Assembly: GCF_021729075.1 (NCBI RefSeq) | Contig: NZ_JAJSAQ010000002.1 | Location: 558,001 to 622,000, forward strand | Direction of reading: 5' to 3' | Length of the DNA: 64,000 nt | From: Microbulbifer guangxiensis | GTDB taxonomy: Bacteria; Pseudomonadota; Gammaproteobacteria; Pseudomonadales; Cellvibrionaceae | In this document: positions 22,225-37,898 of the stretch, piece by piece | How positions within the stretch are numbered: the stretch's first letter is position 1 | Layout: the number at the start of each line of letters is the position of its first letter | Program-made: the position numbers and the translations under genes | Notes under the pieces: generated by a model | Seen by the model: only the letters and a program-made list of their open reading frames with translations | Databases searched by the model: none | What the model was told of the DNA's origin: nothing

Positions 22225-23526
22225 GTGACACAGACAGAAATCAGCAAAGACATTGCTATCGGCTTGATGTTTACAGCCACAGCTCTGCTGTGTGGCAACG
22301 CCTGCGCGGAAGTCGAAGACACATCCGCGACAGTGTCCAGCGCTCCACCTCCCGCCTACCTCGAAGCGGCATCAAAACCCCTGCACCTCGCCAAGCGGCA
22401 GCTGCGGCCCTCTGAGGTCGTCGACAGCTACCGCGAACGCATCGAGGAGATGGAAGCCCAGTACGGCGCCTATGGTGCCGGTATCGACGAGCAGCTTGTC
22501 GGCTTGGCCACGGCATTGCAACGCAACGGCGCCCACGAAGAGGCCATCAGCGAATTTCGCCGCGCCATGCTCATCAACCGTGTCAATGAGGGACTCTATT
22601 CACTCAACCAGGTCCCCATGATCGAGAACATGATCGAGAGCCAGATCGCACTCAACCAGTGGGAGGATGCCAACGACAACCAGCAGTACCTCTACTGGCT
22701 GCATGCGCGCAACTATGGTGAAAATGATCCCCGCATGCTGCCGGTGATCGACAGCCTCAGCCGCTGGCATTTGCAGGCCTACAAAGAGGAAAAGGGTGGC
22801 ACCCTGTTCGAGCACCTGATCAGTGCCACAGATCTCTACAGCCTGGCGGTCGACATCATCACCAATAATTTCGGTGCCAACGACCTCCGTCTGGTGGAGG
22901 CTCTACGCGGCCTCAAGGCCACCAATTATTACCTCGCCACCTACAAGGGCGAGCCCCAGGAACCGGTGGTGGTCAATGCCAACTTCGGCGGCGGTCCGGA
23001 TATGGACGCAGCCCGCCGCACGAAGCTCGATCACTACAAGCTCAACAGCTTCAGCTCCGGCAAGCAGGCGATCGCCAGGATCGTCGATGTTTACCAGAAA
23101 AACCCACAGTCGCCGCCGGCCGCTTCGGCCAAGGCCAAAGTTGAACTCGGCGACTGGTATATGATGTTCAACAAGTGGCACTCGGCCCGCGAAACCTATG
23201 GCGAGGCCTACCAGGCGCTGTGGGACAACGGTGCGACCAATCAGGAAATAGACGCGATTTTCGGCCGGCCCGCCGCCCTGCCCGCTCTGCCGATGCTCGA
23301 GGAGGACCGGCAGGGGCTCGCGGATGCCTACGTGACCGTGTCTTACGACGTCACCGCCTTTGGCAAAGTACGCAATATCGAGATACTGCATGCGGAGCCC
23401 GCGGATGATGTCGGCATGCGCTCCCGGGTTCGCAATGCGCTCAAGCGGGCAAAATTCCGCCCGCGGTTTGAAAACGGCGAACCGGTGGAGACCACCGGCA
23501 TCGTGCAGCGATTCGTGTTCGACTGA
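22225..23526 (+). CDS. Exported TPR protein with TonB-like C-terminal domain
   Basis: A 433-residue protein. The N-terminus (about residues 1-28, ending NACA-EV) is a probable signal peptide. Residues about 60-330 are helical TPR-like repeats (LVGLATALQRNGAHEEAISE, then AKVELGDWYMMFNKWHSARE). The last 75 residues resemble the TonB C-terminal fold: VTVSYDVTAFGKVRNIEIL, then RVRNALKRAKFRPRFENGEP and VQRFVFD. No transmembrane anchor or Pro-rich spacer is seen, so it is unlikely to be a classic energy transducer. The start is GTG with a poor ribosome-binding site; codon 15 (ATG) is an alternative. It leads the envelope cluster that runs to 37898. Confidence 0.75.
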   Translation: MTQTEISKDIAIGLMFTATALLCGNACAEVEDTSATVSSAPPPAYLEAASKPLHLAKRQLRPSEVVDSYRERIEEMEAQYGAYGAGIDEQLVGLATALQRNGAHEEAISEFRRAMLINRVNEGLYSLNQVPMIENMIESQIALNQWEDANDNQQYLYWLHARNYGENDPRMLPVIDSLSRWHLQAYKEEKGGTLFEHLISATDLYSLAVDIITNNFGANDLRLVEALRGLKATNYYLATYKGEPQEPVVVNANFGGGPDMDAARRTKLDHYKLNSFSSGKQAIARIVDVYQKNPQSPPAASAKAKVELGDWYMMFNKWHSARETYGEAYQALWDNGATNQEIDAIFGRPAALPALPMLEEDRQGLADAYVTVSYDVTAFGKVRNIEILHAEPADDVGMRSRVRNALKRAKFRPRFENGEPVETTGIVQRFVFD

Positions 23527-23627
23527 CGGGTAAACTTGGCGATTCCTGCGCCCCTCTGAACCGGCAGCCAAACCCAGCAGGGCAAGGCGCTGTCGAAGAA
23601 GACAGGACGCATGATCAGCGGGACGCA

Positions 23628-23646
23628 GGCCGGGCTATGCCCGGCC
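23628..23646. terminator. Short GC hairpin after the TPR/TonB-C gene
   Basis: GGCCGGGC-TAT-GCCCGGCC is an 8-base perfect stem in the 227-base gap before the next gene. There is no T-run; it is either a weak terminator or an mRNA-processing hairpin that separates the TPR gene from the rest of the cluster. Confidence 0.35.
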
Positions 23647-23753
23647 CTGTGCGCTGTGGAGATCGCCCAATTTTACCCTCGCGGGACTGCCGCCAAACGC
23701 TCACGCACGCACACGCATTAGCCCGGGCGGGAACCGGGCCTCAGGAGAGAACA

Positions 23754-25001
23754 ATGACTCTACGGATAGCGGTACCAGGCTCAACGCAGCACACACGCAG
23801 CTGGCGCACCCTCGCTTCGGTCATCGTGCTGAGCGCAGTGATCGCCGGCTGCAAAACCCAGCAGACCCAACAACAGCCGCCGGCCCAGCCCCAGCAGCCG
23901 TCGTCGAGCTCATCTTCACAATCCCAGTCCCAGTCGCAGCCAAGCCCCAGCAGCCCGTCCTCGAGCCGCAGCCAGAGCCAGCCGCAGACTGCCAGCAGCA
24001 CCTCCTCCAGCAGCTCCTCGCGCTCTTCGCCCAGCCAGAGCATGCCGAACAGCAGCGACAGCCGCACGAATACCAGCATGCCCACCATCGAGTCCGGCAG
24101 CGAAGCGAGCCGCGAAGCGACCACCGCTGCCAGTAGCGGCGAGGAACAGAGCCGGCGCCAGAGCTCTGCGTCCGATTCCATGCCGGATCCGACCGCACGG
24201 AATAACCAGCCGTCATCACCGGTATACAGTGAATCGGATCGCCGGCCGGAAGAGAGCAACATGCCCCCGGACCCCTCCACCAACAGTGAGGGGGAGCCAC
24301 CGGATGAAATCGATTTTTCCGAGGAAGAGCAGACAGCAGCGTCCTCAAGTAACAGTTCCTCCAGCAGCAGCGCCTCGAGCAGCAGTTCCGCGAGCAGCGC
24401 TTCCAGTAGTTCTGCCTCGGCGACCAGCTCCGCCAGCAGCGCATCCAGTGCTGCCAGCAGCAGCGCCTCGGGCTCTCCCGCCAGTGGTGGTGGACCCTCT
24501 GGCGGCAGCAGCGCCCCCAACGAAGCACCCGCCACTGCCGCAGAGCGTGTGGAACAACTGGAGGGAGAATTTGAGGCCACCATGGCCAGCTATGACGGCA
24601 TGATCCTGCGGGAGCGGGACTATGTGCGCAATCGGCCCGCCTCCGAAGAGGAGACCGAGGAGATGGACGAACCGCCACCCGGGGAATCCCTCGAGGACCT
24701 GATCGAGTCCGCAGAGGCTGAGATCCCGCCCCCGCCCGGCGGTGGTGAGGGGGGTGGCCCGGGCCCGGAGGAGAGCAACTCCAGTGGCCAGGCCACTGGC
24801 CCCGGTATGCAGACAGCTGGCCGCAAGGGAGAATTCGACCACAGCGGCAGCACGCCAGTGGTTCCCGCCGACATCCCCAAAGGAGATGACGATGATGTGG
24901 TGGCACGCCAGATTCGCGAAGCCGCCATGCGGGAGTCGGATCCGGAGCTCCGCGAGAAGCTCTGGGAGGAATATCGCAAATACAAGAAATCGCAGAAGTA
25001 G
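23754..25001 (+). CDS. Poly-serine-rich lipoprotein
   Basis: A 415-residue lipoprotein. The lipobox is IAGC (Cys near residue 31) after a hydrophobic segment, with AGGAGA 8 bases before the ATG. The mature part begins with Gln/Pro repeats and then long runs of Ser with Gln, Pro, Ala and Arg (about residues 40-120 and 190-260), a disordered linker type found in marine polysaccharide-degrading gammaproteobacteria. The C-terminal 130 residues are acidic and helical, with VEQLEGEFEATMASYDGMIL and a charged end (DVVARQIREAAMRESDPELR). No enzymatic domain is seen. It is probably a flexible spacer or scaffold anchored to a membrane. The next gene starts 17 bases later. Confidence 0.8.
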   Translation: MTLRIAVPGSTQHTRSWRTLASVIVLSAVIAGCKTQQTQQQPPAQPQQPSSSSSSQSQSQSQPSPSSPSSSRSQSQPQTASSTSSSSSSRSSPSQSMPNSSDSRTNTSMPTIESGSEASREATTAASSGEEQSRRQSSASDSMPDPTARNNQPSSPVYSESDRRPEESNMPPDPSTNSEGEPPDEIDFSEEEQTAASSSNSSSSSSASSSSSASSASSSSASATSSASSASSAASSSASGSPASGGGPSGGSSAPNEAPATAAERVEQLEGEFEATMASYDGMILRERDYVRNRPASEEETEEMDEPPPGESLEDLIESAEAEIPPPPGGGEGGGPGPEESNSSGQATGPGMQTAGRKGEFDHSGSTPVVPADIPKGDDDDVVARQIREAAMRESDPELREKLWEEYRKYKKSQK

Positions 25002-25018
25002 TCGCGGAGGGAACCCCA

Positions 25019-26242
25019 ATGCAGTCACTGAATGCCACTCTGTTTCACCCCGGCATCGCCCGCTTTCTCGGTCGCAGCCTGGCCCTCGTTGCCGGCCTGG
25101 TCCTTTTCGGTTGCACCTCGACCGAGGTACGGACCACGGCCTACACCCCGCTGACCGTGGAGGATTCCGCCATTCCGGAAGGCCGCTTGCTGGATGTGGG
25201 TATCGTGCAGTTTGACCCGGGCCTCGAAACCACCGAGGTCAGCGAGGAAGACCTGGTATTTCCCGAACTGCGCCAGGCGGAATCCCGCTATATCGCGGTC
25301 ACGCTGTCCGAATCCCTGCAGTCGAGCCAGGGCTGGGGGGCCGTGCGCGTTGTGCCCAGCGCGCGTTCCAACATCGATGTCACCGTGACCGGCCGCATCC
25401 TGCAGTCCGATGGCGAGACGCTCACCCTCGAGGTCACAGTGGTCGACTCCCGCGGTCAGCGCTGGTTCACCAGGGAATACAGTGAAAAGGCCTCCCACTA
25501 CGCCTACGACCGCAAACACCCCACCGAGGGCGATGCCTTCCAGGGACTGTACAACCGTATTGCCAACGACATGATGGTCTACCGGCAGCAGCTGTCGGAC
25601 CAGTATGTGGCCGAGCTTCGCACCATTTCGGAAATGAAGTTTGCCCGCAGTTTCTCGCCGGATGCTTTCTCCCGCTATCTCACCCAGAGCGAGGACGGCA
25701 TCTACCAGCTCAAGGCATTGCCCGCTGAAGATGACCCGATGCTGCAGCGGGTACGACGTATTCGCGAACGGGACTACCTGTTCGTGGATACCCTGCAGGG
25801 TTACTACGGCACCTTCGTCAAGTCCATGGAAGCGCCTTACCAGGAGTGGCGTGCCCTGAGCTTCGAGGAGGTGCAGCAGATGCGCGAGCTCAAGCGCAAG
25901 GCACGTAACCACACCATTATGGGCGCAGCGGCGATTGTCGGCGGTATCGCTGCGGCAGGCGCCGGTGGCGGCGCCGCCCGCCAGGCCGCCAATGTGGCGG
26001 TTGCCGGCGGCGGTTACCTGGTCAAGAGCGGTTTCGATCGCCGCAGCGAAGCCAAGATGCATATCGAGGCCCTGCAGGAACTGGGCGATTCCATGGAGGC
26101 GGAAGTGGAGCCCCAGATCGTCGAGCTGGAGGATCGCACGGTGACGCTGAGCGGCACAGTGGAAAACCAGTACCGCCAGTGGCGCGAACTCCTGAAGGAA
26201 ATCTACGAAGCGGAAACCGGCGGGCTCGACGGCAGTATCTGA
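25019..26242 (+). CDS. Lipoprotein of unknown function, cluster member
   Basis: A 407-residue lipoprotein (lipobox LFGC, Cys near residue 32). Residues about 50-160 look like a curli-assembly or GNA1162-type alpha/beta domain: LLDVGIVQFDPG, YIAVTLSESLQSS, VTVTGRILQSDGETLTLEVT. A helical region follows, then a Gly/Ala-rich hydrophobic stretch (about residues 297-330, IMGAAAIVGGIAAAGAGGG), which could be a membrane-inserting glycine-zipper. The C-terminus is acidic helical. No known family could be named with confidence. It sits 17 bases after the poly-Ser lipoprotein gene and 67 bases before the TM-TPR gene, so it is probably co-transcribed. Confidence 0.75.
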   Translation: MQSLNATLFHPGIARFLGRSLALVAGLVLFGCTSTEVRTTAYTPLTVEDSAIPEGRLLDVGIVQFDPGLETTEVSEEDLVFPELRQAESRYIAVTLSESLQSSQGWGAVRVVPSARSNIDVTVTGRILQSDGETLTLEVTVVDSRGQRWFTREYSEKASHYAYDRKHPTEGDAFQGLYNRIANDMMVYRQQLSDQYVAELRTISEMKFARSFSPDAFSRYLTQSEDGIYQLKALPAEDDPMLQRVRRIRERDYLFVDTLQGYYGTFVKSMEAPYQEWRALSFEEVQQMRELKRKARNHTIMGAAAIVGGIAAAGAGGGAARQAANVAVAGGGYLVKSGFDRRSEAKMHIEALQELGDSMEAEVEPQIVELEDRTVTLSGTVENQYRQWRELLKEIYEAETGGLDGSI

Positions 26243-26309
26243 TGATGTGCGGCGGTGGGAAACACCGCCGCGCTGCCCGGAACAATAACCACGACTTTGC
26301 GGAATCACT

Positions 26310-27878
26310 ATGCAACACCGCGACGAGAACCCGGATGACAAGGGCATCATCAGCCCCGCAGATTTCAGTTTTGGCGGCAGTGTCACACCGGAAGCCAAGC
26401 CCGGGCAGAAACAGGACTCGACCAGGGCCGCGCCCCCGGGCCGCGACTATCGGGCACTCACCATCGGCTCGCTGCTGGTCCTGGGCCTGGTCGGGGTTTT
26501 CTGGGTGCTGCCCCAGGCGGTCGACAAACCCAAACCCCAGGCCCCCGTGGCTGCGACACCTGTTACCCAGCAATCCCCTGCGGGCAACCGCGAAAAGCCT
26601 GTAAAGGCATCACCATTCAGCGATGCCGAGATTGCCCAGCAACGCCGCGAAGTGCAGAAGGTCCTGCAGGACATTCTCGCCCTGCAGGAAGAACTGCGTG
26701 AGCGGCACGTCGATACCTGGGCGGCCGAGGAATTCGGCAGCGCGCGAGGCCTGGCTGAGGAGGCCGACACCATCTACCGTCAGCGGAAATTTATGCAGGC
26801 ACTGGAAAAATACCGCGCCTCCCTGGCCGCCCTGCAGGAAATCCGTGACAGCATTCCCGCGCGTATTGAAAAACATCTGGCAGAGGGCAATGAGGCCCTG
26901 GACCGCGGTGATGCCGAGGGGGCCCACAGCGCCTTCGACCTGGTACTCACCATCTCTGATGACCACCCCCGCGGGGTGAAAGGCAAGGCCCGGGCGGAAA
27001 AACTGCCAGAAGCCTGGCAGCATTTTTCCCGTGGCAAGCAGGCATTCGCAGAACAGGACCTGGATACCGCCCGCGAGGCGCTGCAACAGTCACTGAAGGT
27101 GGACGGGGAAACCCGGCCAGCCAAGGCGCTGTTACCTGAGGTGCTCGCCGCCATCAAGGACCGGGATTACAGCGAAGCCATGTCGGCGGGCTACGCCGCA
27201 ATCAGTGCCGGGGATTTTTCCGCCGCCCTGGAGGCGTTTCGCAGCGCACAAAAGCTGAAGCCCGGTGAAGAGGATCCGGAAGTGGGCATCCAGCAGGCGA
27301 GGAGCGGGCTGACCCAAACCCGCATCGACAGCCTGTTCGCCCGGGCGCGTCAGCAGGAAGCCGCCGAGGAGTGGCACGGTGCGGTGAAGAGCTACGAAAA
27401 CCTGCTGGAAATCGACAAAAGCCTGGTTTCCGCCATCACCGGCAAAGCGCGCTCACAAGCACGGGCGGAGCTGGACGACCGCCTGAGCGAGTTGCTCAAA
27501 GACCCGCTGTCCCTCGGTGGCAGCAAGCAGAACCAGTATGCTCGTTCCGTGTTGAAGGATGCGCGGGCAATCAACGCCGATTCACCCAAACTGCAGGGCC
27601 AGATCGAATCACTGGAAACGGCGCTCACCCAGGCAGTGATTCCAGTGGCGGTCAGACTGCAGTCGGACGCCACCACCCATGTCACTATCTACCACGTGGG
27701 CAGGCTGGGTAATTTCAGCGAGCGGGAAATCCCCCTCAAGCCGGGACGTTACACCGCAGTGGGAACCCGTGCCGGCTATCGCGATGTGCGGCGTGAATTC
27801 ACCGTTGTTCCCGGGGAAGAACCACCGGTCGTCGTCATCCAGTGTGCAGAAAAAATAAACAGCGCCAATAACAGCTGA
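26310..27878 (+). CDS. Single-pass membrane protein with TPR-like repeats and PEGA-like end
   Basis: A 522-residue protein: short cytosolic N-terminus, one helix (about residues 50-68, LTIGSLLVLGLVGVFWVLP), a Pro/Ala spacer, then a long helical periplasmic region with TPR-like units (residues about 100-400; for example YRQRKFMQALEKYRASLAAL and AGDFSAALEAFRSAQKLKPG). The last 75 residues are beta-rich and resemble a PEGA-type domain (IPLKPGRYTAVGTRAGYRDV). The next gene encodes five PEGA repeats, so the two may interact. The ATG has GGAA upstream. The role is probably scaffolding in the envelope complex. Confidence 0.75.
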   Translation: MQHRDENPDDKGIISPADFSFGGSVTPEAKPGQKQDSTRAAPPGRDYRALTIGSLLVLGLVGVFWVLPQAVDKPKPQAPVAATPVTQQSPAGNREKPVKASPFSDAEIAQQRREVQKVLQDILALQEELRERHVDTWAAEEFGSARGLAEEADTIYRQRKFMQALEKYRASLAALQEIRDSIPARIEKHLAEGNEALDRGDAEGAHSAFDLVLTISDDHPRGVKGKARAEKLPEAWQHFSRGKQAFAEQDLDTAREALQQSLKVDGETRPAKALLPEVLAAIKDRDYSEAMSAGYAAISAGDFSAALEAFRSAQKLKPGEEDPEVGIQQARSGLTQTRIDSLFARARQQEAAEEWHGAVKSYENLLEIDKSLVSAITGKARSQARAELDDRLSELLKDPLSLGGSKQNQYARSVLKDARAINADSPKLQGQIESLETALTQAVIPVAVRLQSDATTHVTIYHVGRLGNFSEREIPLKPGRYTAVGTRAGYRDVRREFTVVPGEEPPVVVIQCAEKINSANNS

Positions 27879-28186
27879 ATCGAAGAACCGTCGCCCGGGA
27901 TTCAGATCAAATAATCCGGGCAACTGCCAATTACCCACTCCGCCGGAAACCGGCAACGGCAGGGGCCCGGAATTATCGCTTGATGAAACTGGACCGAAAG
28001 GCGACGCCGGTATCCGCAAAAAGATGTTTTTTGCGCCAAAGGGTCCGACGACCATCATGCCAGGCAGGGTTGCGGGCTAAGCTTGAGTGCACGGAGCGAG
28101 GGAGTGCCGGAGCCCTGACCCGGGCGCGGCAGTCGCTGCCGCCATTGCGATAATTCAGATAAGTGCGCAGTAACAGGAAAGCATAA
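27879..28186. other. Intergenic gap inside the envelope cluster
   Basis: About 308 bases, the largest gap in the cluster. No gene is supported. The last 60 bases (28130-28180) contain TTGCGATAAT and an AGGAAA ribosome-binding site for the next gene; an internal promoter here is plausible but not demonstrated. Confidence 0.45.
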
Positions 28187-30277
28187 ATGACAGCGAAGGA
28201 AGCGGTACCTGTCCGTGATGGCGATCGCGCGGACGATGAATTTTCGGTCATCCAGCCCACTGGTTTCTCGCCCGTTCAGGTTGAGGACCGTGCGCGACAG
28301 ATGCTGTTCTCAACCCGGGCTCTCGTAATTGCCGGTAGCATGCTCTTTGGCCTGCTGGTCCTGGTTTACCTCCTGGTCGCACGTTCACTCATCTTTGAAA
28401 CCCAGCCTGCCGATGCCGACGTCAAAGTCAGGGGCTTTGCCATTCCCCTGGGTGACGGTCACCTGGTGTTGCCCGGCGATTACGAATACACGGTGACAGC
28501 CACAGGCTACCTGCCCAAGAGCGGCAAGGTTTCCGTGTCCGAGGAAAAGAACAGCCGCCATGCGGTCAAGCTGGAACGCCTGCCCGGCCACCTGCAGGTG
28601 GTCAGTGATCCGCCGGTTCCGGTGCGCATCCTTGTGGACGGCGCCGAGGTGGCCAGTGAGCAGGGCCTGGCGCAAAACATCCCGGCTGGCCGCAAACGCA
28701 TTACCGTGCTGACCGATCGCTACCTGCCCTTCACCCGCGAGGTGGACATCGAGGGCCTCGACAATACCCAGCACCTGCAGGTCAAGCTGCGCCCCGCCTG
28801 GGCCAATGTACGCATCAGCAGCAATCCCCCGGGTGCCACCGTCACGGTGGGAGGCGAGGTGTTGGGCACCACCCCCATGACCGCCGAACTGATCCAGGGT
28901 GACCGGATCGTGGAAATTTCCAAGCCACAGCACAAAACCGCGGAAATACCAGTGGCGGTAACCGCCGGCGTCGACCAGACACTCACCCCGGTGGATCTCG
29001 CAGCAGCAGACGGCATCCTGCGCCTCGCCAGCACCCCCGAAGGCGCCAGTGTCACCGTAAACGGTGAATTCCGCGGCCGCACACCGCTGGATGTCGAGTT
29101 GGAGCCGGGCTCCACGCACCAGGTGCGGCTGTTCAAGGATGGCTACTCCGCCGTGGAGCGCACCATTGATATCGCCGCCGGCGTCGAGCGGGAAATGACC
29201 ATCGACCTGTCGGCAGTATTCGGCAAAGTGCGCATCACCAGCAGTCCGGCCAATGCAGAGGTCTACATCGATGGACGCCTCGCCGGCAGCGCCGGTGAAA
29301 CCTTTACCCTGCCCGCCCGCAGTCACCGTATCGTTGTTCGAAAGAGTGGCTTCGAGGACTACGAAACCACCGTGGTTCCCAGTGCCAAGCTGGAACAGAG
29401 TATCCGCGCAGTACTGCTGACCGCAGAGGAAGCCCGCTGGAGCCAGGTGCCGGCCGAATTCACCCATGGTGCCGGCGGTCGCATGGTTCTCATGCGCCCC
29501 AACGCGGAATTCACCATGGGCTCCTCCCGGCGCGAGCAGGGCCGGCGCGCCAATGAGGTACTGCGTCAGGTTGCCCTGACACGCCCCTTCTACCTGGGTA
29601 CCACCGAGGTCACCAACCGCGAGTATCGCCGCTACAAGCGCATGCACTCCTCAAGCCACGTGAACGGTGTCAGCCTCGACAACGACAACCTGCCGGTGGT
29701 GAACATCAGCTGGGCCGATGCCGCCATGTTCTGCAACTGGCTCAGCGCCCGCGATGGCCTGAAGCCGGTCTACCGCACTGAGGGAGAGCGCGTTGTCGGC
29801 TTTGATGCCAGCGCCAACGGTTACCGGATGCCTACCGAGGCAGAGTGGGCCTGGGCCGCGCGCTACGAAGGTGGCAGCATGAAGAAGTTTCCCTGGGGCG
29901 ATGAATTACCGGTGCGGAAAAACTCCGGCAACTATGCCGACAACAATGCTGCACAGCTGCTTCCCGCGGTGCTGCGCACTTACAGCGACCGCTATGCCGC
30001 CACAGCCCCGGTCGCCAGCTACCAGGCCAATTCCCTGGGCATCTACGACCTGGGCGGCAATGTCTCGGAGTGGGTGCACGACCTCTACACCATCGGTACC
30101 GGTCTCTCGCTGCGCAGGGAGGAAAACCCGGTCGGCCCGCAGGATGGGGATTACCATGTGATCCGCGGCTCCAGCTGGCGCCATGCAGGGCTGACGGAAC
30201 TGCGACTTTCCTACCGGGATTACGGTGCCGAACCGCGCAACGACGTGGGCTTTCGTGTCGCACGCTGGGTCAACTAG
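28187..30277 (+). CDS. Membrane-anchored PEGA-repeat protein with SUMF1/FGE-fold C-terminal domain
   Basis: A 696-residue protein: cytosolic N-terminus, one membrane helix (about residues 44-66, ALVIAGSMLFGLLVLVYLLV), five PEGA-type beta repeats (about residues 68-400; units such as VRISSNPPGATVTVGGEVLG and LRLASTPEGASVTVNGEFRG), then an FGE/SUMF1-type domain from about residue 430. The latter has FTMGSSRREQGRRANE, TEVTNREYRRY, NGYRMPTEAEWAWAAR, GIYDLGGNVSEWVHD, VIRGSSWRH and NDVGFRVARW. The paired active-site Cys of true formylglycine-generating enzymes are missing, so catalysis of that type is unlikely; ligand binding or assembly, as in GldK/GldJ or PvdO, is a better guess. It is spaced 9 bases from the next gene. 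Confidence 0.88.
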   Translation: MTAKEAVPVRDGDRADDEFSVIQPTGFSPVQVEDRARQMLFSTRALVIAGSMLFGLLVLVYLLVARSLIFETQPADADVKVRGFAIPLGDGHLVLPGDYEYTVTATGYLPKSGKVSVSEEKNSRHAVKLERLPGHLQVVSDPPVPVRILVDGAEVASEQGLAQNIPAGRKRITVLTDRYLPFTREVDIEGLDNTQHLQVKLRPAWANVRISSNPPGATVTVGGEVLGTTPMTAELIQGDRIVEISKPQHKTAEIPVAVTAGVDQTLTPVDLAAADGILRLASTPEGASVTVNGEFRGRTPLDVELEPGSTHQVRLFKDGYSAVERTIDIAAGVEREMTIDLSAVFGKVRITSSPANAEVYIDGRLAGSAGETFTLPARSHRIVVRKSGFEDYETTVVPSAKLEQSIRAVLLTAEEARWSQVPAEFTHGAGGRMVLMRPNAEFTMGSSRREQGRRANEVLRQVALTRPFYLGTTEVTNREYRRYKRMHSSSHVNGVSLDNDNLPVVNISWADAAMFCNWLSARDGLKPVYRTEGERVVGFDASANGYRMPTEAEWAWAARYEGGSMKKFPWGDELPVRKNSGNYADNNAAQLLPAVLRTYSDRYAATAPVASYQANSLGIYDLGGNVSEWVHDLYTIGTGLSLRREENPVGPQDGDYHVIRGSSWRHAGLTELRLSYRDYGAEPRNDVGFRVARWVN

Positions 30278-30286
30278 GAGACTGTC

Positions 30287-30580
30287 ATGAAGTGCCATTC
30301 AAAAGAGCAAAGACATGGCCGCCCCGCGGGCCTGCTGGGGGCGCTCCTGTTCGCGACTTCCATCGCTCTCTCCGGGCTGCCAATCGCCGCAGAGGAAACG
30401 ACTGAGGGCGAGAAGGATACGCAGGAACCGGTGCAGGTGGCCCAGGTCGGGGAGAAAGCCAGTGAAGGGGAAAGCTCCGGCACGGCTGGCGGCTCGGCGA
30501 GCAATAACAACGCGGATGATTACGAGGCCTCGGAGGAAATCTCAGAGGACCTGTCCGTCTCGTTCCCGGTGGATATCTGA
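30287..30580 (+). CDS. Small acidic exported protein
   Basis: 97 residues. The N-terminus (about residues 1-35, with LLGALLFATSIALSGLPIAA) is a probable signal peptide cleaved near IAA-EE. The mature part is about 60 residues, very rich in Glu, Gly and Ser, and likely disordered. It has GGAG upstream, and the tight spacing to the PEGA/FGE gene (9 bases) argues for co-expression. No family is known to me. It may be an accessory peptide of the complex. Confidence 0.65.
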   Translation: MKCHSKEQRHGRPAGLLGALLFATSIALSGLPIAAEETTEGEKDTQEPVQVAQVGEKASEGESSGTAGGSASNNNADDYEASEEISEDLSVSFPVDI

Positions 30581-30680
30581 GACAGGCGCACAAAGGAACC
30601 ATCACTACAAGTACAACGAAAAATGAGGTCTGCAGGGGCGAGGCTCATCCCGTCGCCCCGGTAACTGAGCGAGAAGCACT

Positions 30681-31475
30681 ATGAAATTCAAGTCGTCCGA
30701 TTTTGTCTTCCAGCTATTTGCCCTGCTGGCGGCGGTCATCCTCGTGCACGCCGTGTATGTGGCAGTCATCCGCCCCAACGCCGATGCCCTGATCGAGGAG
30801 CAACTGGCGCGGGAGGCCGCCGGTGAAACCTATGTCCAGCAGCGCTCGCTGTATATCGTCATGCGCGATTACGAGCAGGAAGCGTGCTTTGTGCTGATGC
30901 TCTGGGCCATGGCCATCATGGGCCTGAAGGCGCAGCGCAGCATGCGCGAGCGCCGCCTCCTGGACAAGGCGCTGCTCAACGTCAGCGAAGGCACCCCGAT
31001 CCTGCCGGAGGATGCGCGGGACCTGTCGCGGCCGATTCAGGCCCTGCCGGAGGAGGAGCGCAACTACCTGCTGCCCCGGGCCCTGCTCACGGCCCTGCAG
31101 CGCTTCGCCTCCACCAAAAACGTGGCCGCGGTCTCGAACTCGGTCAAGGAGGTGTGTGAAACCGAGGGCGACCGCCTGGACTCCGAACTGGCCATGGTGC
31201 GGTACATCACCTGGGCCATCCCGTCGATCGGCTTTATCGGCACGGTGCGCGGTATCGGTGAGGCACTCTCGCAGGCACACAAGGCCGTGGAAGGCGATAT
31301 CGCCGGTGTGACCGTCAGTCTCGGTGTGGCTTTCAACTCTACTTTCATCGCCCTGGTGATCAGCATCGTGATCATGTTCTTCACACACCAGCTGCAGCTG
31401 ATGCAGGAGCGGCTGGTACTGGATACACAGAATTATTGCGACAACCACCTGCTGCGGTTCCTCAAGGTCAGTTGA
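30681..31475 (+). CDS. MotA/TolQ/ExbB-type proton channel protein
   Basis: A 264-residue inner-membrane protein with four predicted helices at about residues 9-30, 67-84, 172-192 and 211-236, one more than ExbB/TolQ. The last two carry the PF01618 signature: WAIPSIGFIGTVRGIGEAL (compare AP-x-LGLLGTVxG) and VTVSLGVAFNSTFIALVIS. A cytosolic domain lies between TM2 and TM3. In ExbB, TolQ and MotA these helices form the pentameric ring around the ExbD/MotB helix pair that conducts protons. No separate exbD gene is adjacent; instead the two downstream vWA proteins carry an ExbD-like helix. AGCGAGAAGC precedes the ATG at weak spacing. Confidence 0.88.
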   Translation: MKFKSSDFVFQLFALLAAVILVHAVYVAVIRPNADALIEEQLAREAAGETYVQQRSLYIVMRDYEQEACFVLMLWAMAIMGLKAQRSMRERRLLDKALLNVSEGTPILPEDARDLSRPIQALPEEERNYLLPRALLTALQRFASTKNVAAVSNSVKEVCETEGDRLDSELAMVRYITWAIPSIGFIGTVRGIGEALSQAHKAVEGDIAGVTVSLGVAFNSTFIALVISIVIMFFTHQLQLMQERLVLDTQNYCDNHLLRFLKVS

Positions 31476-31566
31476 CAGGTTTCCGCCAGCAAAAAACAGA
31501 CGTTGCCAAAACAGCACCCCATCCCCGCTTGAAGCCGGGGCTGGAAAGTGAAAAGAGGAATGCCCT

Positions 31567-32871
31567 ATGGGACATGGTGTCCTTGAAATCAATGACTGCG
31601 GGCTGCGTGTCTTTACCGGCACCGACGAAATCCTGGAAAGCCCCGGCATCGCCGTCGTGGAGCCCCATAAAATCCTCGTGGGCACCGCCGCGCAGATGCG
31701 CGCCCGCTGCCACCCCACCCAGGTCAACAACCAGTTCTGGCGCCGCCTCAGCCTCGAGAGCCTGAAGTCGGAAAATGCCCGCTGCCGTCACCATGCCGAT
31801 CTGGCCTACTGCCACCTGCAGGAAGTGGCCGATCACTGCGACCTGCCCGAGCAGGTTACCCTCGCCGTGCCCGGCAACTTCAGCCGCGAACAACTCGCCC
31901 TGCTGCTGGGCATCATCAAGGAAAGCCCCATCAATGCGGTGGGACTGGTCGATGCGGCCACCGCCTGTATCAGCGCCACTGCACCACGCGGCGTCCATCT
32001 GCATGTGGAACTCCAGCGCCAGCAGACGCTGGTGAGTCGCGTTGCGGTCCATGAGCAGGCGTCATTGGATATCGCCGAAACCGTCAACGACGCCGGCCTG
32101 CAGAACTTCCAGGACGCCTGGGCCCGGGTATTCACCGATGCCTTCATCATGCAGTGTCGCTTCGATCCACTGCATTCCGCGGATGCGGAACAGCAGCTTT
32201 ACGACCTGATGCCCCAGTGGATCAACCGCGCCATGCGCGGCGGCGAAGTACTGGCGGAGATGGAAGACCGCACCGCCAAGGTGACCCTGCGCCAACTCCA
32301 GGACGCCAGCACTCCGATTCTCTCGCGTGTGCGGGCACTGATCGAAAACCTGTCAGAGTCGTCCAGCGTGGTTTTCGTATCCCATCGCTGGGCAGAAATA
32401 CCCGGCGGCGCACAGCTCGCCGAGCGCATTCACCTGTTGGCCCACAACTGCATCGCCCAGGCTGTCGCCGGTCGCTGGGAGCAGATTTACAGCCCCTCCG
32501 AGGCCCTGCCACTGATCAATGTCCTGGACGCCGCTCCCCCCAGCGAAGTGGTGGTCCAGGTCAACAGTGCCGCCGAGGCAGCGGCAACCCACCTGCTGTT
32601 CGGTCACCGGGCACTGGCGGCACAGCAGCCACTGTTCGTCAGCTGGCAGGAAGGCAAGCTCAATATCACCCCCACCCCGCCGGAACATCCTGCCGGGACC
32701 GTCACCAGCCATGCCGGTCGCCTCGCCCTGCGGGTGGATGCAGGTGCACGCCTGATGCTCAACGGCCAGGAGATTTCTGCACCGGTCAACCTGACCGCCG
32801 GGGACAGGATCGGCGTACCGGACCTGGAAGATGTGATTACAGCAATCAGCGTGGAGCGTTATGGCGCGTAA
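31567..32871 (+). CDS. Degenerate Hsp70/actin-like protein with beta-sandwich tail
   Basis: A 434-residue soluble protein. The N-terminal half follows an Hsp70/actin-fold layout: a first strand GVLEINDCGLRVF at the phosphate-1 position, SPGIAVV and ILVGTAAQMRAR, then LAVPGNFSREQLALLLGI and INAVGLVDAATACISA, which match the VPAYF and NEPTAAALA segments of Hsp70. The phosphate loops lack the usual DxGT and GGG residues, so ATP hydrolysis is doubtful. The last 60 residues (LALRVDAGARLMLNGQEI, then LTAGDRIGV) look FHA-like. It sits between the proton-channel gene and the first vWA gene, overlapping the latter by 11 bases, so a cytosolic platform for the membrane complex is inferred. GAGG precedes the ATG. 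Confidence 0.65.
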   Translation: MGHGVLEINDCGLRVFTGTDEILESPGIAVVEPHKILVGTAAQMRARCHPTQVNNQFWRRLSLESLKSENARCRHHADLAYCHLQEVADHCDLPEQVTLAVPGNFSREQLALLLGIIKESPINAVGLVDAATACISATAPRGVHLHVELQRQQTLVSRVAVHEQASLDIAETVNDAGLQNFQDAWARVFTDAFIMQCRFDPLHSADAEQQLYDLMPQWINRAMRGGEVLAEMEDRTAKVTLRQLQDASTPILSRVRALIENLSESSSVVFVSHRWAEIPGGAQLAERIHLLAHNCIAQAVAGRWEQIYSPSEALPLINVLDAAPPSEVVVQVNSAAEAAATHLLFGHRALAAQQPLFVSWQEGKLNITPTPPEHPAGTVTSHAGRLALRVDAGARLMLNGQEISAPVNLTAGDRIGVPDLEDVITAISVERYGA

Positions 32872-33943
32872 GAAAAGGCGCTTTTCCGCCTTCAGCCTGT
32901 CATTTCTGGACATCATGTCCTGTGGCTTCGGTGCCGTTGCGCTGATCTTCCTGATCATCAAACACGGTACCGACCGGGACATACAGGCGGAAAACCAGGA
33001 TCTCGCTGCCGAGGTCAACCTGCTTCAGGAAGAAGTGGAGTTCGGCCGCGAGCACCTGGTACTGGCCAGAAATACCCTCGATGTGACCAGTGACGAGCTG
33101 GCGGAAGCCCAGGGCCTGGCTCGCCGCATCATGGAACAGATCGAGGATGTGAAAGGCAACATCGCCGAGGTCGACAGCAACAATGATGAGCAGGACATCA
33201 AGCGCCTGCAGGAGAAGCTGAAGAAGCTCGAGGAAGCCAAGAAGGAACTGGAAGCCGAGAACAAAAAGCTCGGCAACAACGTGCGCAAATATGTCGGTGA
33301 TGGGGACCGGCAGTATCTCACCGGATTGCGCCTTGGTGGTGACCGCATCCTGATCCTGCTGGATTCCTCCGCCAGCATGCTGGGCGATGAACTGATCAAG
33401 GTGATCCGTGCCCGCAACATGTCCTCACGGGTCAAGCGTGACACCGAAAAATGGCGCCGTGCGGTCAACACGGTTTCCTGGCTCACCGCACAATTCCCGC
33501 AGGACAGCCAGTACCAGATCCTTACCTTCAATACCGGTTTCCGTACCGCACTGCCCGGTACCGAGGGGCGCTGGCTGAACGTGGACGACCGCGACCAGAT
33601 GGACCAGGCCATCAAGGAACTCAATGAGATAGTCCCGGAAGATGGCACCAGCCTTGAGCGGGTCTTCAATGCCATCAACGGCATGAGCCCTCTACCGGAC
33701 AATATCATCCTCATCACCGACGGCCTGCCCACACAGGGCATGAAGGCCCCGCGGGGCAATACGATTACCGGCAAGCAGCGCCTCGACCTGTTCAAGCGCG
33801 CCGTCAAGGCGCTGCCAAAAAATATTCCCGTGAATGTGATCCTTGCTCCCATGGAGGGCGACCCCTACGCCGCCAGTGAGTTCTGGAAACTCGCCATGGA
33901 GACCCAGGGTTCCTTCCTGGCACCTTCGAGAGACTGGCCATGA
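32861..33943 (+). CDS. ExbD/MotB-like membrane helix fused to a vWA domain (first of pair)
   Basis: A 360-residue protein: basic N-terminus, one helix (about residues 13-33) with FSLSFLDIMSCGFGAVALIF, in which Asp17 occupies the place of the proton-carrying Asp of ExbD (xxFIDVM) and MotB. A coiled coil follows (about residues 42-140), then a von Willebrand A domain from about residue 160. The MIDAS is complete: DSSAS at 168-172, a Thr in DGTSLE and an Asp in ITDGLPT. By analogy with ExbD/MotB the vWA domain would be periplasmic. It overlaps the gene before by 11 bases and the gene after by 4 bases. It is paired with a similar protein downstream. Confidence 0.85.
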   Translation: MARKKRRFSAFSLSFLDIMSCGFGAVALIFLIIKHGTDRDIQAENQDLAAEVNLLQEEVEFGREHLVLARNTLDVTSDELAEAQGLARRIMEQIEDVKGNIAEVDSNNDEQDIKRLQEKLKKLEEAKKELEAENKKLGNNVRKYVGDGDRQYLTGLRLGGDRILILLDSSASMLGDELIKVIRARNMSSRVKRDTEKWRRAVNTVSWLTAQFPQDSQYQILTFNTGFRTALPGTEGRWLNVDDRDQMDQAIKELNEIVPEDGTSLERVFNAINGMSPLPDNIILITDGLPTQGMKAPRGNTITGKQRLDLFKRAVKALPKNIPVNVILAPMEGDPYAASEFWKLAMETQGSFLAPSRDWP

Positions 33944-34944
33944 GACGCAACCGAAACAAGCGACAACAGGAAGAGTTCAACATTTCCTTTCTCGATGTCA
34001 TCTGCTGTGGCTTCGGCGCCATCGTCCTGCTGCTGATGATTGCCAAGACCGTCGAGCCCATCGTACTGGAGGAGGCCGAACTGGACCTGGACGGGCAGGT
34101 GGAAGAACTACAGGAGCAGCTGGCGGAAATCCGCGGTGAGACCACCGTGCTCAACCGTGACCTGAACGCCAAGCGCGAGCAACTGGATATCGAACGCGAG
34201 CGCATCGCCATCCTGAAGGGCGAGCTGGAGACCCTGCAAGTCCAGTATGCGCGCAAGACCGAGGGTGAGTCGGAAGAGGGCAAAATCCGCGGCGAACTCA
34301 CGGTCGCGTTGCAGAGCCTCACCGACGAAATGCGGCGCCTGCTGGGGGAAAACTATCAGCGCAAGAACAACGTCATTGGCGGCATCCCGGTCGACAGTGA
34401 ATACATCCTGTTCATCATCGACACCTCCGGCAGTATGTTCAATTACGGCTGGGATCGCATGATGCAGGAGATGGTGAACACCCTGAACCTGTATCCGAAC
34501 GTCAAGGGTATTCAGGTGATGAACGACATGGGGGACTACATGTTCTCCAATTACCGCAACAAGTGGATCCCCGACACTCCCGGCCGCCGGGACGCCATCC
34601 TGCAACGACTCCGTTCGTGGAACCCGTTCAGTAACTCCAGCCCGGTCGAGGGTATCCAGAAAGCGGTGCGCAGCTTTTACGACCCCAACAAGAAAATCAG
34701 TATCTATGTGCTCGGGGATGAATTTACCGGCAAGTCCATCCGCAATGTGATGCTGGCGGTGGATCGCGTCAATGCGCAGCACGGAGAGAGCAAGCGCAAT
34801 GTGCGTATTCATGCCATCGGCTTCCCGATCCAGTTCTCACGTCCCCCACATCTGCAGACCACAGGTCTACGCTTTGCAGCATTGATGCGGGAATTGACCT
34901 ACCGCAATGGCGGTACTTTCGTCGGTCTCAACGATTTCCGCTAG
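33940..34944 (+). CDS. ExbD/MotB-like membrane helix fused to a vWA domain (second of pair)
   Basis: A 334-residue protein of the same architecture as its neighbour: helix with NISFLDVICCGFGAIVLLLM (Asp19), a coiled coil (about residues 43-140), and a vWA domain from about residue 150 with DTSGS at 161-165. The other MIDAS residues are less clear (Ser in SNSSPVEG, Asp in YVLGDEFTG). The N-terminal motif FLDx(I/M)xCGFGA is shared with the first protein; the Cys and Gly residues are unusual for this helix class. The ATGA overlap with the preceding stop implies coupled translation, hence a hetero-dimer in fixed ratio is plausible. Confidence 0.85.
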   Translation: MRRNRNKRQQEEFNISFLDVICCGFGAIVLLLMIAKTVEPIVLEEAELDLDGQVEELQEQLAEIRGETTVLNRDLNAKREQLDIERERIAILKGELETLQVQYARKTEGESEEGKIRGELTVALQSLTDEMRRLLGENYQRKNNVIGGIPVDSEYILFIIDTSGSMFNYGWDRMMQEMVNTLNLYPNVKGIQVMNDMGDYMFSNYRNKWIPDTPGRRDAILQRLRSWNPFSNSSPVEGIQKAVRSFYDPNKKISIYVLGDEFTGKSIRNVMLAVDRVNAQHGESKRNVRIHAIGFPIQFSRPPHLQTTGLRFAALMRELTYRNGGTFVGLNDFR

Positions 34945-34969
34945 CAGAGGGCCCGTCCAGGAGCAGATT

Positions 34970-35659
34970 ATGGCGAACAGAAAGAAAGGATTTCCCTCGG
35001 CGATGCGGACAGGCCTCGTAGCGGCAGCACTGTTGCTTGGCGCCTGTTCACATACGGTGAGAGTGGACGGGGAATTCCCGCAACCGGTCGGCCCCCAGCA
35101 TCCGCTGACCGTGGGCGTCTATCTCAGCGAGGACTTCCGTGAATTCACCCATCACGAGGACAGCGAGGATCGTGAAGAGTGGAATATCAGCACCGGCAGG
35201 GCGCAGGAAAATCTCTTCCAGACCGTGCTGGGCTCCATGTTCGCGGAGACCATCCCCCTCGGGCAGTATCCCGCCAATGTGCCCGGTGACGTCGAACTGG
35301 TGATCGTACCGGAAATCCGTGAACTGCAGTTCACCATGCCGCGGGAGACACGGGTCAACATCTTCGAGGTGTGGATCAAATACGATATGAATGCCTACGC
35401 ACCCAATGGTGACTCGGTCGCCAGCTGGGTGATCACTGCCTACGGCAAGACACCAACGGCATTCCTCAAGTCCCGCGAAGCCGCGCTGGCCCAGGCGATC
35501 AATGTGGCGCTCAGGGATGCAGGAGCCACTCTCTATACGGGTTTTGCCCGCGTACCCGAGATGCAGGTACTGATCGAGGAAAAACGTCGCGCCCTGGCCC
35601 TGGAAAAGATTCCGTCGCCAACAGACAGCGCCAGTGCCACTGACGCGCCGGTGGAGTAA
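34970..35659 (+). CDS. Lipoprotein of unknown function, cluster member
   Basis: A 229-residue lipoprotein (lipobox LGAC, Cys near residue 26; AGGAG ribosome-binding site before the ATG at 34970). The mature part is alpha/beta (LTVGVYLSEDFREFTHHE, FQTVLGSMFAETIPLG, VELVIVPEIRELQFTMP, FEVWIKYDMNAYAPNG), reminiscent of YajG/LptE-like or curli-associated outer-membrane lipoproteins, but no firm family. The C-terminus is a Ser/Ala tail. It starts 25 bases after the second vWA gene, so it belongs to the same operon. Confidence 0.75.
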   Translation: MANRKKGFPSAMRTGLVAAALLLGACSHTVRVDGEFPQPVGPQHPLTVGVYLSEDFREFTHHEDSEDREEWNISTGRAQENLFQTVLGSMFAETIPLGQYPANVPGDVELVIVPEIRELQFTMPRETRVNIFEVWIKYDMNAYAPNGDSVASWVITAYGKTPTAFLKSREAALAQAINVALRDAGATLYTGFARVPEMQVLIEEKRRALALEKIPSPTDSASATDAPVE

Positions 35660-35762
35660 CGGGCAGTAAACCGACGGCCGGTGATTGTGCCATCACCCGC
35701 TGCCGGCCCCATCGACCCCGGCGCAGGGTTGCCCGGGGCCGACCAATCGACAGGAGGTTGTT

Positions 35763-36431
35763 GTGGTTAGAGCAATTTTTGGTTTTGCACTGGTGCTGCT
35801 GAGCGGCTGCACCACCGTGGTCATCGACGAGTACCGTCGCAGCGATGGGGAGCTGGCCAAGGGGGACAGTGTGGTCATTCTCGGTCGCAGGCACTCCAGC
35901 GACTACGAGACCGAACCGGACCTCATCGACTGTGTGGGACGGCAACTGCACGACCCCGACGCCGGTCTGAACATCATTCCCGAGCGCCAGTTTGTCGATG
36001 CCATGTACCCATGGTTCGAACCACGCACTGCCCCGATGCACCTGCGCTCCCTGGACCGCATGCTCGAAAACCAGGAGTTGCGTCAGCGTCTCGAGACATA
36101 TGGCGTGAAGTACATCATCTGGATTGATGGCTCCACGGAAACCACTGCCAGTGCGGGTTCCATCGGCTGCTCCATCGGTACCGGTGGCGCCGGCTGTTTT
36201 GGCTTTGGCACCTGGGACAAGGAGTCCGACTACGAGGCATCGGTCTGGGACTTCCGTGACCAGGAGCTGTCCGGCAAGCTGAGCGCGGATGCCAAGGGCA
36301 CCTCCTATATGCCGGCCATCGTGGTACCCATTCCACTGATTGCACGGGTGCAGACCAACGCCTGCAAGGGTATGGCACTTCAGCTACAGGAGTTTCTGCT
36401 GCCCTCGCAAAGCACCAAACAGAAATCCTAG
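35763..36431 (+). CDS. Lipoprotein of unknown function, cluster member
   Basis: A 222-residue lipoprotein. GTG at 35763 is chosen because a strong AGGAGG lies 5 bases upstream and the signal sequence VRAIFGFALVLLSGC starts there; the lipobox is LSGC. The mature domain is alpha/beta (DSVVILGRRHSSDYETEPDL, RLETYGVKYIIWIDGST, YEASVWDFRDQELSGKL) with Cys pairs at CVGR, GCSIG and AGCFGFG. It resembles a family of periplasmic proteins seen near M48 peptidases only loosely. The M48 gene follows 15 bases later. Confidence 0.75.
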   Translation: MVRAIFGFALVLLSGCTTVVIDEYRRSDGELAKGDSVVILGRRHSSDYETEPDLIDCVGRQLHDPDAGLNIIPERQFVDAMYPWFEPRTAPMHLRSLDRMLENQELRQRLETYGVKYIIWIDGSTETTASAGSIGCSIGTGGAGCFGFGTWDKESDYEASVWDFRDQELSGKLSADAKGTSYMPAIVVPIPLIARVQTNACKGMALQLQEFLLPSQSTKQKS

Positions 36432-36446
36432 GGAGGCAAAGGATCG

Positions 36447-37898
36447 ATGCATACTTTCAATAAAATACTCATCGCTGCCCTGCTCGCAACGACTACCGGT
36501 TGCGCATTCAATCCGGCTACCAACCGGCCGGACCTGGTGCTGATGTCGGAGGAAAAGGAGATCGACATCGGCAAGGAGATGCACGAAAAGCTGGTCGCCA
36601 GCACCCCCATTTACCGGGACCCGGTGCTGACCGCCTACGTGGATCATGTCGGGCAGAAGGTTGCCAAGGCCAGTGACAGACCCGACCTCGGCTACACCTT
36701 CACCATCATCGACAGCCAGGACATCAATGCCTTCGCCCTTCCCGGCGGTTACGTGTACATCAACCGCGGGCTACTCACCTACCTGCACTCAGAAGCGGAA
36801 ATGGCGGCCGTGCTGGCCCACGAAGTGGGACACATCACTGCACGCCATGCCGTGCGCCAGAAAACCGCTGCCACCGGCGCCGGTGTCGCATCGGTGCTCT
36901 CCGTGCTCGTCACCGGCAGTGGCGTGGTCGGGGATGTTGCCAGCCTTTGGGGGACCGCCGCAGTCAAGGGCTACGGTCGCGAGATGGAACTGGAAGCTGA
37001 CCGCTTTGGCGCCCAGTACATGTACAACGCGGGCTATGATCCGCAGGCAATGATCAATGTGATCGGCCTGCTCAAGGACCAGGAGACCTTTGCGCGGCGC
37101 AAAGCCCGACTCGAGGGCAAGAAGCCGCAAACCTACCATGGTGTTTTCTCCACCCACCCACGCAACGATATCCGCCTGCAGGAAGTGGTTGCGGCAGCCG
37201 GCAAGCTGCCCGAGGACAAGAAAATCACTAAGGTGGAATATTATCGCGAGAAGACCGAGGGCCTCGTCTACGGACAGAATGCGCAGCAGACGGAGAAGAA
37301 CCGCTACAACCACAAGCGACTCGGTTTCTCCCTGCTCTTTCCAGAGGGCTGGACCATAGAAAACCAGCGTTCGGCCATCGTCGGCACTGCGCCGGACAAG
37401 AGCGCCACCATTACCATCAAGGTGGATCAGCGCAATGGCAACCAGCCCGCCGATATGGCCCTGCGGGAAGCTTACGACGTGCGCAACCTGGAGCAGGACG
37501 AAGTACTCAACCAGTACAGACTCACCGGGCATACCGGCAAGCTCCCCTCCGCCACCACCGAAACCCCCGACCGGGTGGCCGTCATTTACTACGGCAGCCG
37601 CCAGTACCTGCTCGAGGGCAAGGTCCAGGGCGAAGCGTCGGATAAGGAAGTCAGGGAGCAATATGACAACCTTTTCCTGAGCAGCATCCGCAGCTTCCGG
37701 CCTCTGCGCAAGAGCGATGTCGTCGAGCCCGATATCAAGCGGGTCAAATATGTGCAGGCGAATGAAAAAACCACCTTTGCCTCGCTGGCGCGGCATATGG
37801 ATATCGGCGACTACGCCGAGGAGCAACTGCGGCTGTTGAACGGCTACTATCCCCGCGGAGAACCCAAGCCCGGCGAGTGGATCAAGATCGTCCAGTAA
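36447..37898 (+). CDS. M48 family metalloprotease, lipoprotein
   Basis: A 483-residue zinc peptidase of the BepA/LoiP type, anchored by a lipobox (TTGC, Cys near residue 19). The M48 domain shows HEVGH at residues 125-129 (H125 and H129 as ligands, Glu126 catalytic) and the third ligand in MELEADRFG. Family signatures INAFALPGGYVYINRGLL and STHPRNDIRLQ are present. The C-terminal 200 residues form a second domain ending in a LysM-like stretch (NEKTTFASLARHMDIGDYAE). E. coli BepA and LoiP act on misassembled outer-membrane proteins; a similar quality-control or processing role for the cluster proteins is inferred. It is the last gene of the cluster. Confidence 0.92.
   Translation: MHTFNKILIAALLATTTGCAFNPATNRPDLVLMSEEKEIDIGKEMHEKLVASTPIYRDPVLTAYVDHVGQKVAKASDRPDLGYTFTIIDSQDINAFALPGGYVYINRGLLTYLHSEAEMAAVLAHEVGHITARHAVRQKTAATGAGVASVLSVLVTGSGVVGDVASLWGTAAVKGYGREMELEADRFGAQYMYNAGYDPQAMINVIGLLKDQETFARRKARLEGKKPQTYHGVFSTHPRNDIRLQEVVAAAGKLPEDKKITKVEYYREKTEGLVYGQNAQQTEKNRYNHKRLGFSLLFPEGWTIENQRSAIVGTAPDKSATITIKVDQRNGNQPADMALREAYDVRNLEQDEVLNQYRLTGHTGKLPSATTETPDRVAVIYYGSRQYLLEGKVQGEASDKEVREQYDNLFLSSIRSFRPLRKSDVVEPDIKRVKYVQANEKTTFASLARHMDIGDYAEEQLRLLNGYYPRGEPKPGEWIKIVQ

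Follow-up and report, generated by a model that had tools for sequence, protein, structure and literature searches.

Motors of the 5:2 class consist of a pentamer arranged around a dimer and are moved by ion flow; to our knowledge few ion-driven members have known roles, namely those of flagella, Ton, Tol, the type IX secretion system (T9SS), Agl and Zorya. This pentamer-around-dimer, ion-driven architecture is discussed by Williams-Jones et al. (Mol Biol Evol 2025, msaf138; PMC12204202), whose Fig. 4c,d shows TolQ with paired TPH-vWA genes, TPH standing for 'transpore helix'. In their account, TolQ/TPH-vWA loci occur mainly in Proteobacteria and Verrucomicrobia, lack TolR/ExbD and have an unknown function; the helix contains an Asp and the channel a Thr ring, models of TolQ and TPH-vWA pairs have the axle helix inside the pore, and the reading is proton-driven, as here. 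The authors distinguish two vWA families; they state that a deletion phenotype is not on record for the first and give none for the second. Here we analyse a locus of the marine bacterium Microbulbifer guangxiensis contained in a stretch of 64,000 nucleotides (assembly GCF_021729075.1, contig NZ_JAJSAQ010000002.1, positions 558,001 to 622,000), the whole of which is referred to as the window. Thirteen genes, A to M, occupy 22225-37898 as a single block, and all are located on the + strand, as claimed in a preliminary description made from the sequence. The machine was there called undescribed; its core, a TolQ-like protein with a vWA pair and without TolR/ExbD, is already in print, since the window fits the account in PMC12204202 and, judged from that account, probably belongs to the published TPH-vWA/TolQ family.

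The block probably encodes a single ion-powered motor of the 5:2 class that spans the envelope and acts, through its vWA heads, on lipoproteins of the outer membrane; its products would form one physical complex with protons as the putative drive. Forming the predicted channel is G (30681-31475, +), a MotA/TolQ/ExbB protein that matches Pfam MotA_ExbB (PF01618) at 2e-14 with 53.8 bits, against a cut-off of 22.9, and has no match to PDB sequences at 0.01. Across the 123 neighbourhoods compared here (80 near loci, 14 loci of relatives, 20 loci from a class draw and 9 from a phylum draw), G was found in 75 of the 80 near loci, the other five being locus edges, and in 14/14, 19/20 and 9/9 of the remaining sets. 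Residues T188 and T221 of G are invariant (23 of 23 aligned members; 117 of 117 by motif). In the window, H lies between G at 30681 and the two vWA genes at 32861-34944, of which I encodes vWA1 (32861-33943, +; Pfam vWA 2.9e-7) and J encodes vWA2 (33940-34944, +; Pfam vWA 0.009, weak and below the cut-off). An ExbD-like helix with Asp17 is followed in I by a predicted coiled coil of about 110 residues and a vWA head with a DxSxS motif of the metal-ion-dependent adhesion site (MIDAS) type; J has the same plan, with Asp19 in the helix, and the two proteins are homologous over the length of J (hhalign 6.7e-27). The only PDB sequence match of vWA1 at 0.001 is to a coiled coil. Both helix residues are invariant in the alignments (D17 of I, 24/24; D19 of J, 24/24); anchored helix patterns miss 3 of 122 vWA1 and 4 of 123 vWA2 members, which the alignments show to be conserved. 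DxSxS is present in 121/122 vWA1 and 123/123 vWA2 proteins by a loose pattern, and in 88/122 and 119/123 by a stricter MIDAS pattern. The channel and the two vWA proteins with an ExbD-like helix that had been proposed are borne out by conserved residues and by Pfam, weakly so for J.

Neither I nor J matches ExbD (PF02472), and none of the 123 loci has an ExbD match inside the block, ten having one outside it; the profile used for the loci was built from two sequences and is of limited sensitivity. The M. guangxiensis genome has seven MotA_ExbB places and, outside I and J, six ExbD places. The window contains a lone ExbD gene (47369-47791, -) with no adjacent ExbB, whose pairing with the ExbB-like protein would have spoken against the proposed machine. 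Orthologues of this gene with at least 83% identity are present in all 25 genus genomes searched, among them G007, which yielded no vWA1; relatives at 48-55% were detected in genomes of other families, six of which have no match to vWA1. The gene therefore occurs independently of the block, and on this ground it was rejected as the motor partner. Outside the window (G000:C2, about 657,000), locus L007 contains a MotA/ExbB-like protein of 435 residues (520-1827, -) with a long tail of coiled-coil appearance; it is ZorA-like by eye and adjoins a methyltransferase-like open reading frame (ORF).

The order and strand of the detected genes are preserved in 118 of the 123 loci: in all near loci (80/80), relatives' loci (14/14) and phylum-draw loci (9/9), and in 15/20 of the class draw. 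The near set comprises the best 80 of at least 571 confirmed loci and is skewed to close relatives, 12 of the relatives' loci come from the genus itself, and the phylum draw holds eight loci from another class and one from the same class. Repeats are present, 114 loci having distinct vWA2 ends; with repeats removed, order is kept in 109 of 114. Five loci are exceptions, G standing behind J in L148 and L150 and A being on the opposite strand in L156, L157 and L158. Genes missing from the near loci all lie past the locus end, save H in one locus. Conservation of the block is far above chance, and its genes remain neighbours in different genera and families and in one further class, in keeping with the single unit that had been proposed. 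In the other proteobacterial class the block is smaller and consists of B, C, D, E, F, G, I and J.

Outside these neighbourhoods, vWA1 was detected in 23 of 24 other genus genomes, the sole miss being G007 (completeness 80%). Other families of the order contributed 13 genomes, of which two have vWA1. In evenly drawn samples, 30 of 369 class genomes (G124 and G327 weakly) and 16 of 398 phylum genomes match the vWA2 profile, the M. guangxiensis genome being counted in both; 13 of the 16 belong to one family of another class. Among the 369 class genomes, C and vWA2 occur together in 25, vWA2 alone in five and C alone in two (Fisher P = 1.2e-31, a value inflated by kinship, for which it is uncorrected).

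The largest gap within the block, of 308 bases, lies between D and E (27879-28186), as had been noted, and may contain an internal promoter. This gap is long in the 14 relatives' loci (median 283) and about zero in the other sets. A second gap given as 227 bases holds if B starts at the internal ATG at 23754. A promoter and terminator scan returned two promoter-like sites against 4.1 expected and 19 terminator-like sites against 14.6, with no clear operon ends. Downstream of the block, AMP-binding and GDPD genes are present in 9 of the 80 near loci (locus ends not discounted), and in 34 chosen loci no flanking gene family occurs in more than four. By eye, a sensor-kinase-like ORF flanks the block in 4 of these 34 loci and an ORF resembling NtrC-type regulators in 3; these ORFs, in L085, L187, L192 and L195, from two classes, are possible regulators of the machine.

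Encoded upstream of the channel is E (28187-30277, +), a core protein with an N-terminal membrane helix (by eye), three PEGA stretches and an FGE-sulfatase domain in Pfam, which upholds the PEGA and formylglycine-generating enzyme (FGE) fold assigned earlier; both domains are present in 23 of 23 members. Formylglycine-generating enzymes carry catalytic cysteines in a C-terminal segment, and no Cys is present in any of the 109 such segments found in E. The top NCBIfam match is GldK (1.3e-34), with 120 bits against a cut-off of 350, and a weaker GldJ match covers the same FGE domain. In PDB sequences, true FGE enzymes score 103 bits and PorK 94. The analogy with Gld proteins and T9SS that had been drawn therefore stands for the FGE-type domain and not for GldK itself: because FGE enzymes match E as well as PorK does, only the shared domain is shown, and specific homology to GldK is downgraded. 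In L157 and L158 the N-terminus of E is extended by a stretch of FHA-like appearance, as judged by eye, which echoes the FHA end of H.

The accessory protein H (31567-32871, +) is predicted to be cytoplasmic, with an Hsp70-like nucleotide-domain fold and a degenerate FHA C-terminus. Its model (predicted local distance difference test, pLDDT, 93) resembles mortalin and DnaK with a Z-score of 28 over residues 1 to about 310, and its profile matches DnaK (5e-5) and the EssC FHA domain (2e-4). The Hsp70/actin-like identity proposed earlier is supported by both. Pfam FHA is matched by 3 of 28 members, the window protein not being among them. In Hsp70 proteins the phosphate motifs that bind ATP are of the DLG(T/G) type; by eye none was seen in the alignment of the 28 members, and H is probably no ATPase.

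Located between E and G is the core gene F (30287-30580, +), encoding an exported mini-protein with the near-invariant C-terminal tail SEDLSVSFPVDI-COOH. The small acidic peptide listed in the preliminary description is present, its ORF being this one and not the overlapping frame 30315-30626. In the 105 members found by profile, of 53 to 146 residues (chosen starts), the tail has P(-4) in 105, D(-2) in 105 and I(-1) in 104. The protein ends in FPxDI or a close variant in each of the 117 loci long enough to contain it (116 by pattern; MPSDI, read directly from the gap, in L145), or in 108 of 108 with repeats removed, six loci ending too early. Twelve of the class- and phylum-draw loci with room were missed by the profile, and in 11 of these a shorter ORF ending in FPVDI lies directly before G; eight of the 11 are in the other class, where F may have only about 16 residues after signal cleavage (by eye). 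Profiles detected both E and F in 102 loci, and in every one of them the cluster gene that follows E is F, about 2.4 kb away in L147; F also remains with E in L148 and L150, where G sits behind J. This points to E as a candidate partner. The invariant tail Asp would also suit the metal site of a vWA domain as a ligand. F occurs without H in L159, L160 and L161, and L145 has H; the two need not co-occur.

The tail pattern occurs nowhere else in the 2.24 Mb of the 123 loci (three frames of the cluster strand, repeats included), and a DNA pattern for it occurs once in the M. guangxiensis genome, at F itself. A general sorting signal is unsupported, there being no off-site tail in either set.

The remaining genes agree in location and domain content with the preliminary description (a TPR/TonB-C protein, a poly-Ser lipoprotein, three further lipoproteins, a membrane-anchored TPR protein and an M48 protease), and Pfam has no family match in the window for B, C, H, K or L. 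Among the core components, B (23754-25001, +) is a poly-Ser lipoprotein with the lipobox IAGC-K and a conserved C-terminal stretch; its start was moved by judgement from 23637 to the internal ATG, which yields the lipobox. Of the 80 near loci, 67 contain B and the other 13 are edges; in the phylum draw it is present in 8 of 9 loci, the ninth being an edge. The core lipoprotein C (25019-26242, +; FGC-T by eye) is modelled at pLDDT 82 as a domain similar to FlgT, PelC, CsgG and the TolB N-domain (about residues 42-198), a long helical hairpin and a weak BON-like end, BON being matched in 3 of 30 members (best 0.004). VIA Z-scores of the N-terminal domain are 11.3 for FlgT, 10.6 for PelC, 9.5 for TolB and 9.4 for CsgG, which over 100-138 residues, in a test made mainly on this domain, is moderate similarity; the best Foldseek match is TolB (4.6e-4), with low TM-scores. 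A C homologue with five in-frame stops (G135:C7:1557-2720), perhaps a decaying copy or the result of assembly errors, occurs in a genome without a vWA2 match. The core protein D (26310-27878, +) has an N-terminal membrane helix (by eye) and Pfam TPR, with TPR_2 in 19 of 23 members; an end that looked PEGA-like by eye was discarded, as the Pfam scan of these 23 lists no PEGA.

Besides H, the accessory genes are A, K, L and M. A (22225-23526, +) encodes an exported protein with TPR and a TonB_C-like C-terminus, both matches (TPR_12 7.6e-6; TonB_C 5.5e-5) being slightly under the Pfam cut-off; 48 of the 80 near loci contain it, and the remaining 32 stop short of its position. K (34970-35659, +; lipobox GAC-S), whose start was moved by judgement from 34907 to an internal ATG, aligns with C (hhalign 7.9e-5, probability 61%) over a stretch that includes the signal peptide, which is only suggestive of a possible distant relationship. 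L (35685-36431, +; SGC-T; start uncertain) has no Pfam or PDB sequence match and was found in 78 of 80 near loci (two edges); its apparent likeness to C was rejected, the aligned stretch being the signal peptide alone. M (36447-37898, +), an M48 metalloprotease (Peptidase_M48 1.3e-38) with a lipobox-like TTGC-A by eye, was found in 76 of 80 (four edges). Five window proteins thus look lipidated, B, K and L by pattern and C and M by eye; a loose lipobox pattern matches B in 76/104, C in 98/105, K in 98/101, L in 80/97, M in 76/95 and A in 3/66 proteins. The residue after the lipidated Cys decides sorting, proteins without Asp there going to the outer membrane, and since B, C, K, L and M have no Asp at this position, the outer membrane is indicated. 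Elsewhere in the window, a Lys/Ala-rich ORF (50161-51012, +) with KKPGRPKKA-type repeats resembles histone H1 by eye.

From these parts the following motor can be envisaged, with predicted structures covering C and H individually. Five G subunits would surround one I and one J helix, which would replace the ExbD, TolR or MotB dimer, and proton flow past Asp17 and Asp19 would turn or shift this axle. The coiled coil would relay the motion deep into the periplasm, where the vWA heads may grip and then release their partners. These partners are likely to include F, the PEGA/pseudo-FGE protein E with its inner-membrane anchor, and the outer-membrane lipoproteins, above all C with its domain similar to those of the ring-forming FlgT, PelC and CsgG. 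H would serve in the cytoplasm as a scaffold or regulator and dock by way of its FHA end. Judged by the analogous Tol-Pal and T9SS motors, the machine would most likely exert force at the outer membrane for upkeep or export, our first guess being upkeep and our second export. Tentatively, the free C-terminus of F may dock in the vWA metal site or in the dead FGE pocket of E as a clutch or tether, the hallmark of the machine, and so couple the proton-driven vWA axle to the outer-membrane lipoproteins. We know of no other peptide-clutched motor of this kind.

Several observations weigh against a single motor of this composition. Among the 32 class genomes with C or vWA2, five have vWA2 without C and two the reverse; four of the 20 class-draw loci lack H, as does every one of the eight loci of the other class; and A, K, L and M are confined to nearer lineages among the 123 loci. 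Since these five genes are missing in distant lineages, not all thirteen belong to the core. In L149, from the class draw, the vWA pair has neither G nor C within its 20-kb locus, with B, D, E, F and H retained beside it. Ring formation by C is a fold analogy only, and the partner of F is putative, docking to the vWA MIDAS and to the pseudo-FGE domain being alternatives.

The best surviving alternative, although unlikely, is an export apparatus, in which C (perhaps with K and L) would be an outer-membrane channel or ring like CsgG or PelC, E, F and D would form a periplasmic conduit with the tail of F as a recognition element, and the motor would power export or assembly of a surface product. 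The likeness of C to PelC and CsgG nearly equals that to FlgT, F is exported, very small and fixed at its C-terminus, and the block encodes an M48 protease; but Pfam shows no secretin or polysaccharide synthase among the block genes, no substrate family sharing the F tail was seen in the M. guangxiensis genome or the 123 loci, and no substrate gene recurs in the flanks of the 34 chosen loci. A gliding or surface-motility motor akin to GldLM/GldK or Agl-Glt is improbable. It would fit the FGE-type domain common to E and GldK/PorK, the vWA heads and the M. guangxiensis genome, in which MotB_plug has no match; yet a missing MotB is no proof of gliding, the GldK score is far below its cut-off, FGE enzymes match E equally well, and Pfam and NCBIfam name no other T9SS or Agl-Glt component in the block, bar the weaker GldJ match.

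We give little credence to the reading that there is no single machine and that an ExbB-vWA module shares an operon with independent lipoprotein genes for expression. The loss of A, H, K, L and M in distant lineages and the vWA pair of L149 are what it would predict, but B, C, D, E, F, G, I and J stay together in two classes, and C and vWA2 share their genome distribution. Least probable is a Zorya-type anti-phage system, suggested by the ExbB-type channel with a non-canonical partner and a PADLOC ZorA2 match at 0.0043, and rejected in view of a PADLOC scan of ten proteins, with no credible match and no effector, and of the absence of any match to the window vWA2 in collections of 72,556 plasmid records and 50,697 phage records; as had been stated, no nuclease or helicase is present among the block's Pfam domains, and vWA1 in 23 of 24 other genus genomes, in the same order in 12 genus loci, is unlike patchy defence islands.

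If the trans-envelope motor is real, it would be a further 5:2 motor, spanning many genera, and an example of an envelope machine that incorporates Hsp70-FHA and pseudo-FGE proteins. The parts list, the testable residues Asp17 and Asp19 and the diagnostic tail of F make its role open to direct experiment.

Among known systems, ZorAB belongs to the same motor class and differs in that the block has no effector seen and no credible ZorA match in PADLOC. GldLM is likewise a 5:2 motor, and T9SS also has an FGE-type protein in GldK/PorK; E differs in its N-terminal membrane-helix anchor and PEGA repeats, and no T9SS protein beyond the GldK and GldJ matches was named. Vibrio FlgT, PelC and CsgG share the fold of the N-terminal domain of C (Z-scores 9-11), to which C adds a long helical hairpin, a C ring being a fold analogy. 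With TolQR-TolA-TolB-Pal and ExbBD-TonB the block has in common the channel family, the axle-helix Asp and, in C, a domain resembling the TolB N-domain, whereas vWA heads take the place of the TolR/ExbD periplasmic domain and Pfam names no OmpA/Pal-like domain. No other account of the full block was recognised in the open-licence PMC literature, and passages of PMC12505986 and PMC12905483 contain no 'vWA'. Closest are the TPH-vWA/TolQ loci of PMC12204202, which correspond in the TolQ-like G near a heterologous vWA pair (I and J), the ExbD-like helix with its Asp, the conserved Asp and Thr residues and a block without an ExbD match in 123 loci. PEGA, sulfatase, Hsp70 and M48 are absent from the main text of that paper, and its family section does not describe the lipoproteins or the F tail; the full parts list, with the Hsp70-FHA protein H, the C domain, E without a Cys in its catalytic segment and the tail of F, is apparently new.

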